Shown: one piece after another, positions 40,391-43,801 of the stretch
Position numbering within the stretch: position 1 is the first letter of the stretch
Layout of the letters: the number at the start of each line of letters is the position of its first letter
DNA from: Mycolicibacterium nivoides
Lineage (GTDB): Bacteria > Actinomycetota > Actinomycetes > Mycobacteriales > Mycobacteriaceae
Length of the DNA stretch: 64,000 nt
Assembly: GCF_003855255.1 (NCBI RefSeq)
Contig: NZ_CP034072.1
Location: forward strand, 4,769,208-4,833,207
Reading direction: 5' to 3'
Translations under genes and position numbers: made by a program
The notes under the pieces: generated by a model
What the model was told of the DNA's origin: nothing
Databases searched by the model: none
The model's input: the letters and a program-made list of their open reading frames with translations, nothing else

Positions 40391-40408
40391 GACCGATCGG
40401 TCTAATCT
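40391..40408 (+). promoter_or_regulatory. Autoregulated leaderless promoter of the tetR-glycosyltransferase-atpE operon
   Basis: GACCGATCGGTC (40391-40402) is a perfect 12-base palindrome. TAATCT (40403-40408) directly follows and ends six bases before ATG 40415, with no Shine-Dalgarno sequence. A repressor bound to the palindrome would cover the spacer and -10 region, so the operon is probably off until the TetR protein binds a ligand. Confidence 0.6.
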
Positions 40409-40414
40409 CAGACC

Positions 40415-41044
40415 ATGCGGTCAGAGCGGACGAAGACGTTTACCGAACAGGCTCGCCGTCGGCAGATTGTTGAGGGCGCCCTGGAGGTGATCGCCGAACA
40501 GGGCTATCCACAGGCGTCGCTGGCGCGCATCGCCGAACACATCGGCATCGCGAAAAGCGCTGTGTTGTATCACTTCACCAACAAGTCCGAAGTGGTCGAG
40601 GCGGTCTTCACAGAGATCTTCACCCTTGGCGCCGCGGTGATCGTCCCAGCGGTCGACGCCGAAACCACCGCAGCGGCAAAGCTGTCCGCCTACATCCGGG
40701 CCAACATCGCGTTCGTCGTAGCCAACCGGTCGGCGGCCGTGGCGATGCTCGAACTCATCTCCGGATACCGCGACGCGGACGGATTGCGGGTCGACCAGGC
40801 CGCGGCCAAGGCCGTCCAGGAGAATCCGCCGACCGGAGACCTGGCCGCTCTCGACCCGCAGAGCATCTTCGCCGCCGGGGTGGAAGCCGGTGAGTTCCGG
40901 GAACTCTCACCGCTGTTCATGAAGAACATCCTGCGCGGCGCGCTGGACAGCGCAGCCCAGGAGTACGCCCGCGACCCCGGCTACGACGTCGTCGCCCACG
41001 GCGAAGTGCTCGTCGACATCTTCGAGAAGGCCACCGCGCCGTGA
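40415..41044 (+). CDS. TetR-family transcriptional regulator
   Basis: 209 residues. Helix-turn-helix: ALEVIAEQGYPQASLARIAE, then HIGIAKSAVLYHFTNKSEVVE. The C-terminal part is an all-helical ligand domain without recognisable specificity. First gene of a four-gene operon; its stop overlaps the GTG start of the first glycosyltransferase. The palindrome in its promoter implies control of the two glycosyltransferases and the ATP synthase c-subunit paralog. Confidence 0.88.
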   Translation: MRSERTKTFTEQARRRQIVEGALEVIAEQGYPQASLARIAEHIGIAKSAVLYHFTNKSEVVEAVFTEIFTLGAAVIVPAVDAETTAAAKLSAYIRANIAFVVANRSAAVAMLELISGYRDADGLRVDQAAAKAVQENPPTGDLAALDPQSIFAAGVEAGEFRELSPLFMKNILRGALDSAAQEYARDPGYDVVAHGEVLVDIFEKATAP

Positions 41045-42312
41045 CCACCATCGTCATCGCGGCCTTCGGCACCCGCGGGGACGTCGCCCCATACACGGGT
41101 CTGGCGCAGAAGCTCGCCCAGCAGGGTTATCGCGTCGCCGTCGCCGCCCAGGAGCCGTACCGGGAACTGGTGTCCGGCTGCGGAATTGAATTCCGCTCAC
41201 TGCCCGGGGATACCGAACGCGCGACCAAAGCCTCACCGGTCGCGCAGGCGTTCGTCGACGGCGCCAGGATGCGGCCGTCCCGGGAAATGCTCGACGAGAT
41301 GCGCGAGGATCTGCGCCGGCTGGGCCGTGGCCTGATCGAGGCAGCGAAAGACGCTGACCTGCTACTGCTCCCGTCCGTCGCGGCGCTCCTCGGATACCAC
41401 GTCGCCGAAGGACTCGGCATCCCCAGCGCAGGGGTGTTGCTACAGCCGACCGCACCCACCGGCGACTTCCTGCCGTCGGTGCTCAGCGCGCGATCGCTCG
41501 GCCGCTGGGGCAACCGCGTCATCGGCCGGTTGGGCGCGCTCGGCGAGAAGCCGCACCTGGCGCTGATCAACGAGCTACGCACCGAACTCGGGCTGCGCCC
41601 GACCACGTTGGCGGGGTATCAAAGCAGACGCGCAGCCACCTGGCCCATCCTGCACGGGTTCAGTGAGCACGTGGTGCCGCGGCCCGCGGACTGGCCGGCG
41701 CACTTGCAGGTCACCGGCTATTGGTGGCCGTCGGAGCCCGACAATTGGTCGCCGCCTGCGCAACTGGTCGACTTTCTGCAATCCGGTCCGCCACCGGTGT
41801 TCGTCGGTCTCGGCAGCACGGCAACGGCGCGGGGACCCGAGCTGTCCGACACCATCAGCTCAGCGCTGCGTGCCACCGGCACGAGGGCGGTGGTGCAGAG
41901 CGGCTGGGCCGGGCTGCACTGCACCGGCGACGACGTGCTCATGGTCGACGAGCTTCCGCATTCATGGCTGTTTCCCCGGGTCGCGGCGGTCGTGCACCAC
42001 TGCGGTGCGGGCACCACCGCCGCGACGCTCCGGGCCGGTGTCCCGTCCATACCCGTCACCGGAATCATGGATCAACCGTTCTGGGCGAAGCGCCTGCGAC
42101 TCCTGGGCGTCGCACCTGCCGCCCTTCCGCGCGCCAACGTGACCGCCCTCGAACTCGCCACCGCCCTGCGCGAAGTGTGCGGCGATCCGTCGTATCAGGC
42201 ACGCGCTCAACAGCTCTCGACACTGCTCGCCGGCGAGGACGGAGCGGGGTCGGCAGCGCACCGCATCACCGAACTGCTCGATCGATCACAGGAGGTACAC
42301 CATGGCCAGTGA
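41041..42312 (+). CDS. Glycosyltransferase family 1 (GT-B, UGT/sterol-glucosyltransferase-like)
   Basis: 423 residues with the N-terminal acceptor-domain opening TTIVIAAFGTRGDVAPYTGL and the C-terminal nucleotide-sugar site PPVFVGLGSTA ... VVHHCGAGTTAATLRAGVPS and GIMDQPFWAKRL. The closest known types are mycobacterial glycolipid and macrolide/sterol glycosyltransferases. GTG start overlaps tetR; the last 11 bases overlap the c-subunit gene, whose Shine-Dalgarno sequence lies inside this gene. Paralogous to the enzyme at 42551. Acceptor unknown. Confidence 0.85.
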   Translation: MTTIVIAAFGTRGDVAPYTGLAQKLAQQGYRVAVAAQEPYRELVSGCGIEFRSLPGDTERATKASPVAQAFVDGARMRPSREMLDEMREDLRRLGRGLIEAAKDADLLLLPSVAALLGYHVAEGLGIPSAGVLLQPTAPTGDFLPSVLSARSLGRWGNRVIGRLGALGEKPHLALINELRTELGLRPTTLAGYQSRRAATWPILHGFSEHVVPRPADWPAHLQVTGYWWPSEPDNWSPPAQLVDFLQSGPPPVFVGLGSTATARGPELSDTISSALRATGTRAVVQSGWAGLHCTGDDVLMVDELPHSWLFPRVAAVVHHCGAGTTAATLRAGVPSIPVTGIMDQPFWAKRLRLLGVAPAALPRANVTALELATALREVCGDPSYQARAQQLSTLLAGEDGAGSAAHRITELLDRSQEVHHGQ

Positions 42313-42550
42313 CGCACTGATGGGTAACGCCCTGCTGGCCGGGGCAATCGTGCTGGCCGGCGGAGCAATCGGCGCCGGCATCGGCGACGGGCTCGCCGGC
42401 TCGCAGTTCATCGCCGGTGTGGCGCGCCAGCCGGAAGCCCAAGCGCGCTTGTACACACCGTTTTTCATCACGGTGAGCCTCGTGGAGGCGACGTTCTTCA
42501 TCAACATCGCGTTCATGGCGTTGTTCGTCTTCGCCACCCCAGGCGGATAG
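42302..42550 (+). CDS. F-type ATP synthase c subunit (AtpE-like) embedded in a glycosyltransferase operon
   Basis: 82 residues, two membrane helices, clearly homologous to mycobacterial AtpE: AGGAIGAGIGDGLAG, GVARQPEAQARLYTPFFIT, NIAFMALFVFATP. The ion-carrying carboxylate is Glu62 (Glu61 in M. tuberculosis) and Asp29 is kept. Thr64 and Phe65 replace Ala63 and Tyr64, both in the bedaquiline pocket; Ser59 replaces Gly58. Starts behind AGGAGG, overlaps the upstream glycosyltransferase by 11 bases and abuts the next. No other ATP synthase genes are in the window, so it is probably an extra copy that could enter the c-ring. Confidence 0.9.
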   Translation: MASDALMGNALLAGAIVLAGGAIGAGIGDGLAGSQFIAGVARQPEAQARLYTPFFITVSLVEATFFINIAFMALFVFATPGG

Positions 42551-43801
42551 ATGGCGACCATCGCGATCATCGCCATCGGCAGCCACGGCGATGTGGCACC
42601 GCTGACCGGGGTCGGTGCGCGATTGCAGCGAGCCGGGCATCGCGTGATCGTGGTGGCGTATCAGGCATTCGCCGAACTCGTCACCGGAAGCGGGCTGGAG
42701 TTTCGCGGACTGGCCGACGAACTCGACGGCAACTCAGCCGCTCTGTCGGACGTGTCAGCACGCCAAGCCGCCAAGGCCATGGCGGCATTCCTCTCACCAC
42801 GCGGCATGCGAGTGCTGGGCGATCGCGTGCTGGCCGCCGTCCGTGACGAACCGGTGGACGCGCTGCTGCTGTCACCGTTCGCGGAGCTGGCCGGCCATCC
42901 GCTGGCCGACGCGCTCGCCGTTCCCGGCATCGGCGTTCGGTTGCAGCCTTTCTCGGCGACCGCCGACTATCCACCAGCCGTGCTGGGAGCCTGGTCCGCC
43001 GGGCGGTTCGGGAACAGGGCAGCCGCGCGGATCGGCGCGACCACGATCGACGGGCTGTATGGCAGGGCAGTCAACCACTTTCGTGCGCAACTCGGCCTCC
43101 CGACCGCCCCGGCCCGGGTGTTGCGACGCCGGCGCACTGATGCTGGTTGGCCGATTCTGTACGGGTACTCGCCCACGATCCTGCCCCGGCCGGCCGATTG
43201 GCGGCCAGGTATCGACGTCGTCGGGTACTGGTGGCCGGAGCGCGCGACCGGATGGCAACCGCCCACCGAGCTCGTGGACTTCCTCGACGCCGGCCCGCCA
43301 CCGATCGTCATCGGCTTCGGCAGCACGGTCAACAGCCGCGCCCAGGCCCAGCAGCTGTCCACGCTTGTCGCACAGGCGATTCGGCGCGCGGGCGCGCGAG
43401 CGGTGATCCAGTCCGGCTGGGCGGGGCTCGACTTCGGCGGGGACGACGCGATCGCGGTCGGCGAGGTGCCCCACGACTGGCTGTTCGCGCAGGCGGCGGC
43501 CGTTGTGCACCACTGCGGTGCGGGCACTGCCGCGGCCGGACTACGTGCCGGTGTGCCGGCGATCGCGGCACCAGGCCCCTACGGCGACCAACCGTTCTGG
43601 GCGCGAAGGCTGTTCGACCTCGGAGTCAGCCCCCAGCCGATCCCGCAACGTCGACTCAGCGCCGACAACCTCAGTGAAGCGATACGCGATGTGTTGTCAG
43701 ATAACAGCTTCGGAGACCCGGCGGCGAAGACGGCCGCAGCCATCGCTGCCGAGGACGGTGCGGGCGGGGTTCTCGCAGCCGTTGAGAAGCTGCTCGGCTG
43801 A
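42551..43801 (+). CDS. Glycosyltransferase family 1 (second paralog)
   Basis: 416 residues beginning on the base after the c-subunit stop. Same fold and motifs as the first enzyme: ATIAIIAIGSHGDVAPLTGV at the N-terminus, PPIVIGFGSTV and VVHHCGAGTAAAGLRAGVPA in the C-terminal donor site, and YGDQPFWARRLF. The two glycosyltransferases are ancient paralogs flanking the c subunit. A terminator hairpin at 43865 closes the operon. Confidence 0.85.
   Translation: MATIAIIAIGSHGDVAPLTGVGARLQRAGHRVIVVAYQAFAELVTGSGLEFRGLADELDGNSAALSDVSARQAAKAMAAFLSPRGMRVLGDRVLAAVRDEPVDALLLSPFAELAGHPLADALAVPGIGVRLQPFSATADYPPAVLGAWSAGRFGNRAAARIGATTIDGLYGRAVNHFRAQLGLPTAPARVLRRRRTDAGWPILYGYSPTILPRPADWRPGIDVVGYWWPERATGWQPPTELVDFLDAGPPPIVIGFGSTVNSRAQAQQLSTLVAQAIRRAGARAVIQSGWAGLDFGGDDAIAVGEVPHDWLFAQAAAVVHHCGAGTAAAGLRAGVPAIAAPGPYGDQPFWARRLFDLGVSPQPIPQRRLSADNLSEAIRDVLSDNSFGDPAAKTAAAIAAEDGAGGVLAAVEKLLG

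Follow-up and report, generated by a model that had tools for sequence, protein, structure and literature searches.

Why should a mycobacterium keep a second gene for subunit c of its ATP synthase, away from the atp operon and between two glycosyltransferase (GT) genes under a TetR-family regulator? We met this arrangement in a stretch of 64,000 nucleotides (hereafter the window) of Mycolicibacterium nivoides (GCF_003855255.1, NZ_CP034072.1, positions 4,769,208 to 4,833,207), the genome of which is a 6.9-Mb single contig. Our answer, to which we give somewhat better than even chances, is that the four genes make up an inducible cassette that defends the cell against some natural c-ring inhibitor, acting by glycosylation together with target replacement. 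The original prediction had likewise proposed a two-pronged inducible defence, and it is partly supported by what we found: a regulated c paralog, its linkage to GT1-type enzymes, an altered drug pocket, a local putative operator and one instance of coupling to a MerR/TipAS protein. The genes and signals concerned are these:

40379-40408, + strand, putative promoter: -35-like TTGCCG (40379-40384), 18-bp spacer, -10-like TAATCT (40403-40408)
40391-40402, no strand, putative operator: perfect 12-bp palindrome GACCGATCGGTC between -35 and -10 (from sequence and conservation)
40411-40422, no strand, second operator-like repeat GACCATGCGGTC covering the tetR start codon (from sequence; kept in the 16 operator-type loci described below)
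40415-41044, + strand, TetR-family regulator, 209 residues (PF00440, TetR_N, 49.6 bits, cut-off 24)
41041-42312, + strand, GTa, GT-B fold GT1-type glycosyltransferase, 423 residues (PF06722, EryCIII-like_C, 63.2 bits, cut-off 31.7; PF03033; PF00201)
42290-42295, + strand, Shine-Dalgarno sequence AGGAGG of the c gene (duplex energy -11.7 kcal/mol)
42302-42550, + strand, AtpE-like F0 subunit c paralog, 82 residues (NCBIfam equivalog NF004532, 'F0F1 ATP synthase subunit C', 127.3 bits, cut-off 120; PF00137, ATP-synt_C, 36.8 bits, cut-off 24)
42551-43801, + strand, GTb, GT-B fold GT1-type glycosyltransferase, 416 residues (PF06722, 44.4 bits, same cut-off as for GTa; PF03033, 27.4 bits)

All four genes lie on the + strand in the order tetR, GTa, c, GTb, with successive overlaps of 4, 11 and 0 bases, and the coordinates and family scores bear out the layout first described. 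By this layout they are one operon behind a palindromic putative operator. The c gene has the strongest Shine-Dalgarno pairing of the operon, compared to -5.8 kcal/mol for GTb, -4.7 for GTa and a slight -2.9 for tetR; that of canonical atpE genes is equally strong (mean -11.0 kcal/mol, n=49, versus -10.9, n=28, for the paralogs). As the tetR start codon follows the -10-like element by 6 bases, the tetR transcript is probably leaderless.

The window genome holds two ATP-synt_C genes. One is the canonical atpE, which sits between atpB and atpF, 2.2 Mb away, and the window copy is therefore not the only atpE; had it been, the original prediction would have been refuted. Neither atpB nor atpF adjoins the window copy, and it lies outside the atp operon. 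Subunit a (PF00119) is encoded once, so that the paralog, should it be in use, has only the native ATP synthase to work with. The two c proteins of the genome are 71% identical over 75 residues, and the window copy keeps the proton-binding Glu62 and its partner Asp29. It thereby resembles canonical mycobacterial AtpE at large (NF004532; 4v1f, 7jg5, 9vks, 8j0s), sharing its length, carboxylates, glycine motif and RQPE loop at about 70% identity, but unlike canonical AtpE the paralog is encoded outside the atp operon, stands under a TetR and is mostly altered at positions 58, 63, 64 and 68 and in helix 1.

The arrangement recurs within the genus. Searches with the window c in 148 genus genomes and then in 396, overlapping the first set (E <= 1e-32, a threshold at which, to judge from type II, the more divergent paralogs of the genus are lost), yielded 29 loci in 28 of the 396 genomes, the window's own included, with what we call the type I paralog (81–100% identity to window c); canonical copies score about 70% in the same search. 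Nine of these loci read TetR-GT-c-GT, 11 TetR-GT-c, three TetR-c-GT, one TetR-c (G220) and one MerR/TipAS-c (G246). TetR stands beside c in 24 of the 29 and a GT in 23, so that the linkage is recurrent; several loci were read only 1.5 kb to each side, so that their TetR was seen in part. The type II paralog (EA[AV]FF; 88–100% identical to that of locus L037) occurs in seven of the 396 genomes, four times as TetR-GT-c, once as TetR-c, once with neither within 1.5 kb and once after a broken-looking GT. In L202 (G240:C75), where a type II c lies downstream of a broken-looking GT, c shows unusual changes: a Ser within the FIN motif, and RQSE as the loop sequence. Only TetR accompanies c in G220 and G144, and G028 carries both types, 39 kb apart.

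Neighbourhoods of the two types, read over about 8 kb with a simple gene-calling script, fall into at least seven different sets: a DacB/NMO/TrpS locus, a Peptidase_Mx locus (e.g. L091, Mycobacteroides), and L036, L037, L039, L041 and L044. A contig scan gave at least 80 loci, which are no census; atpB or atpF adjoins c by blast in 76 of the 80 listed, the exceptions being L090, L091, L092 and L105. The closest named relative among the matches listed is L090 of M. peregrinum DSM 43271 (c 100%, TetR 87%, GTa 80%), and L105 of M. arosiense is a type II TetR-GT-c. In G246 the c gene follows a MerR protein with a TipAS domain (L172, 8168-8956, - strand; 45.8 bits, cut-off 23.8), the MerR stop and the c start sharing one base (TGATG) and c running from 8168 down. 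TipAS is Pfam's antibiotic-recognition domain. This protein has the build of the TipAL-type MerR regulators, a MerR with a TipAS domain; its coupling to c is found in one of the 29 loci only.

The residues that set the paralogs apart were compared between 28 type I sequences (the 29 loci minus G255:C444) and 49 canonical ones. Within residues 45–80 the two sets have different majority residues at five positions and no others: 47, 58, 63, 64 and 68. Canonical AtpE has Gly58 (49/49), Ala63 (48/49, with one Val), Tyr64 (49/49) and Leu68 (49/49), and the type I paralogs have Ser58 (21/28), Thr63 (24/28, with three Ile and one Val), Phe64 (24/28) and Ile or Val68 (28/28). Papers are cited here by PubMed Central (PMC) number. 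One of them puts G58S, A63T and L68V within less than 2.5 Å of where bedaquiline binds, and locates Y64 in the binding cleft (PMC6541270). By alignment, the paralog changes at 58, 63, 64 and 68 fall in the bedaquiline/oligomycin pocket beside Glu61. Four of the five majority differences in residues 45–80 lie within a 9-residue pocket set, with a hypergeometric probability of 0.009 that serves as a guide only, since we took the set from PMC6541270 itself and the sequences share ancestry. Oligomycin and venturicidin are both described as acting close to this carboxylate, at sites that overlap the one for bedaquiline (PMC8249445, PMC7438494). Two substitutions had been noted originally, Thr and Phe at M. 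tuberculosis positions 63 and 64 of the window c, and both are confirmed along with the retained Glu62 and Asp29; the altered positions are more numerous than was noted. A sink or decoy role, in which surplus paralog outside the ATP synthase soaks up a c-ring ligand, is extremely unlikely. The small size of this membrane protein and the strong ribosome site of its gene would suit such a role, but the pocket is altered where a sink would need it kept, and the carboxylates and RQPE loop are retained.

The c gene is under purifying selection, since the window copy differs from its counterparts in L046, L048 and L003 by 24, 23 and 17 synonymous codon changes, respectively, and by no amino-acid change. 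It is the most conserved part of the cassette, the protein being 100% identical in L046 and L048 where GTa is only 76–80% identical. In a tree of 58 rows and 84 columns, type I, type II and Tsukamurella sequences form one clade (support 99/97).

A type II TetR was searched for in 298 order-level genomes (E <= 1e-25); 33 genomes matched and nine loci were read further. Two of these (G567:C81 and G606) are TetR-GT-c cassettes in another genus of the family, with c 65–77% identical to type II; both c proteins have Ser58 and one has Val63, while positions 64 and 68 remain Tyr and Leu. Two others (L288, L289) have the TetR without GT or c. The two other-genus c copies stand apart in the tree, yet one clade for all paralogs was not rejected by the approximately unbiased (AU) test (p-AU 0.516, on 84 columns only), and we do not claim an independent origin for them. 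Canonical AtpE formed a single clade (98/97) in an earlier tree from which these two copies were absent, but no longer does so when they are included.

An order-level search with c (397 genomes, E <= 1e-29) matched six genomes outside the genus, with four copies in atp operons by blast (L065-L068) and two (L075, L078) of canonical type by sequence alone. As this search missed the other-genus cassettes that were later reached through TetR, absence elsewhere is weakly tested. No cassette was seen in 148 class-level genomes, 34 of which matched at E <= 1e-8; apart from the window genome only G824 had two class-level matches, both among atpB/atpF pieces. Its locus L271 (G824:C294) has the order atpB-c-atpB-c-atpF on one contig, a duplication or an assembly fault. 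In Tsukamurella sp. 8F (L092) a c gene at 5956-6222 lacks both TetR and GT. Head-to-head with it is a tryptophanyl-tRNA synthetase (TrpRS) gene (4696-5736, - strand), 35% identical to the window TrpS and possibly a second TrpRS; if so, a pair of adjacent spare drug targets would deserve attention. Plasmid carriage was considered and rejected: the sole plasmid match (Tsukamurella NZ_LR134452.1, L170, 'plasmid 10') holds a full atp operon with MlaD and murA, and is probably a piece of chromosome with a canonical c gene.

Control by the TetR looks local. We examined 22 loci and found the GACCGATCGGTC block in 16, those with TetRs 54–100% identical to that of the window; this count includes L090, where one base is changed (GACCGGTCGGTC). 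It is absent from the other six (L037, L178, L039, L041, L044, L105), which have TetRs 41–46% identical and most of which carry GATC-type repeats instead. Across 16 loci picked for this operator type, namely 15 of the 16 above and L285, the majority base has a mean frequency of 0.84 from -40 to +15 compared to 0.44 from -100 to -40. The suggestion of local regulation comes from the pattern CTGACCGNNCGGTCTAAT, which is found once in the whole window genome with up to two mismatches allowed.

Several observations weigh against a defence cassette, and some of them bear on its rivals. Five of the nine loci read further in the TetR search (L281-L285) are TetR-GT without c, so that the parts can live apart; they come from three other genera and from G246, where the pair lies at the DacB locus (L285), and in L284 the GT matches as two overlapping pieces in different frames. 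Conversely, four of the 29 type I loci (G389, G388, G255:C444, G096) have c without TetR, GT or recognised drug regulator. The free-standing TetR-GT pairs would suit a system in which these two are the functional unit, detoxifying a small molecule or a lipid, and in which c, once captured, protects only as an accessory or is nearly neutral. We hold this to be quite unlikely, as c is the part of the cassette that changes least, is also found with TetR alone or with MerR/TipAS, and in the window has the best ribosome site of the operon.

The pocket changes are themselves not uniform. Gly58 is kept in seven and Tyr64 in four of the 28 type I paralogs, and type II (eight sequences, L105 included) has Phe64 throughout but keeps Gly58 in 8/8 and Ala63 in five, with Val63 in three and position 68 divided between Val (four) and Leu (four). 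Many helix-1 and loop positions differ as well: majority differences fall at 5-8, 11, 12 and 14-18 of helix 1 and in the 30-39 stretch, and type I has Ala12 in 28/28 and Ala14 in 25/28 where canonical AtpE has Gly in 49/49. In the aligned sequences the pocket is one of three differing regions. The helix-1 changes would be expected of an alternative rotor isoform for energy physiology, which would change ring packing or the ion-to-ATP ratio when the membrane or envelope is stressed, with the GTs modifying a glycolipid of the envelope in the same response; the sterol GTs among the relatives of the cassette enzymes, which act on lipids, point the same way. We nevertheless regard such an isoform as unlikely, because the patchy spread over several neighbourhoods fits an accessory trait, one genome couples c to MerR/TipAS, and four of the five differences in residues 45–80 lie in the drug pocket.

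As for drug glycosylation, the GTs resemble drug-inactivating enzymes distantly, which is as much of this part of the original prediction as could be sustained. GTa and GTb are mutually nearest in the genome (46% identical, other GTs 26–35%), in the PDB they come closest by sequence to sterol 3-beta-glucosyltransferases and glycopeptide GTs, and they have GT[RH]GD/GSHGD-like N-terminal and HHCGAGT motifs. The best NCBIfam match of both is the rifamycin GT family Rgt (NF000354), and three other cassette GTs score alike, with Rgt best and far under its cut-off. GTa and GTb lie under every curated drug-inactivation cut-off: 124.7 (GTa) and 103.6 (GTb) bits against 800 for Rgt, 65.0 and 64.8 against 260 for the macrolide GT family TIGR01426, and 38.8 and 37.5 against 700 for the macrolide-inactivating Mgt (NF033129). 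The window enzymes thus share the GT-B/GT1 family with Rgt and the macrolide GTs (TIGR01426, NF033129, OleI), but by score they are members of neither Rgt nor TIGR01426.

Bedaquiline is a synthetic compound whereas the cassette is widespread, and it is probably not the natural trigger or ligand. That the cassette is a specific, clinically relevant bedaquiline resistance module seems very unlikely. Position 63 is a resistance site, A63M, A63P and A63V being reported as resistant (PMC6541270) and A63M also being listed for M. flavescens and M. xenopi (PMC5817190), and Val63 occurs in some paralogs; Met63 is given for the canonical AtpE of M. xenopi, M. flavescens, M. shimoidei and M. novocastrense, which is therefore not immutable in nature (PMC5817190). 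Against this, and also against the defence cassette, M. peregrinum CCUG 28064 is listed with a bedaquiline minimal inhibitory concentration (MIC) of 0.015 µg/ml and a minimal bactericidal concentration (MBC) of >2 µg/ml (PMC5817190), although the cassette was seen in a different strain, DSM 43271, and high MBCs are common across species in that source irrespective of the cassette. Resistant atpE alleles on a multicopy plasmid are likewise reported not to have raised the bedaquiline MIC of M. abscessus, whereas chromosomal replacement by resistant atpE raised it 256 times (PMC10269753). These merodiploid data suggest that mixed c-rings stay sensitive, and bedaquiline resistance as such is not favoured.

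How, then, might a defence cassette work? TetR would sit on the two GACC-N4-GGTC sites and shut its own promoter until released by a ligand, most likely the inhibitor or a kindred compound. One or two GT1 enzymes, to judge from their family, would glycosylate the compound, and the strong ribosome site would yield a c subunit that by its sequence is altered at 58, 63, 64 and 68 but retains the proton-carrying Glu together with Asp28, glycine motif and RQPE loop. This subunit may then assemble into rings that work with F1 and the one native subunit a. A single sensitive subunit reportedly suffices to block a ring, so the altered c would have to take the place of most native c or make up whole rings alone; fixed helix-1 changes such as Ala12 could bias the paralog towards self-assembly. 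As plasmid-borne alleles were ineffective in the M. abscessus report (PMC10269753), the cassette would need high induction, self-assembly, or a defence resting mostly on the GTs. A bolder version, which we think possible but doubtful, is an antibiotic-triggered rotor swap, in which drug-proof c self-assembles preferentially and replaces the rotor while the GTs clear free drug, the build having spread between lineages under different sensors.

Target replacement by a second insensitive copy is familiar from MupA-type IleRS, PBP2a and Sul dihydropteroate synthase. The cassette, as far as sequence can tell, likewise presents an extra diverged copy of a target in an accessory regulated locus, with the native copy intact and changes at the drug-binding site. 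Unlike in those systems, the putative target belongs to a multimeric rotor ring as one of its protomers, which makes mixing with native protomers matter, and putative drug-modifying enzymes accompany it. Target replacement and drug glycosylation are known kinds of defence. The original prediction knew of no described system of this build, and we found no regulated spare rotor protomer joined with GTs in the open-licence PMC literature, closed journals being outside the search.

The finding bears on how atpE data are read. According to a method paper, genomes of Mycobacterium have a single copy of atpE (PMC4219376); our finding of another, regulated c gene in 28 of the 396 genomes sampled contradicts this. 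In the variant list of PMC6541270, G58S, A63T, L68V, N33A, I11L, A34Q and A45S are classed as not resistance-associated since they are present in drug-sensitive species. Seven of its eight named non-resistant variants match paralog residues here (L15T does not), and among the 49 canonical sequences Ser58, Thr63 and Val68 never occur, Ala33 being found in three and Gln34 in six. We infer that a paralog entered the alignment of that paper, in which case the training labels of its bedaquiline predictor may include a second gene. More generally, surveys of AtpE variants may mix canonical and paralog genes. Subunit c is the target of bedaquiline, and the cassette, which points to a natural c-ring inhibitor, offers a natural test of what it takes to make a rotor ring drug-proof.

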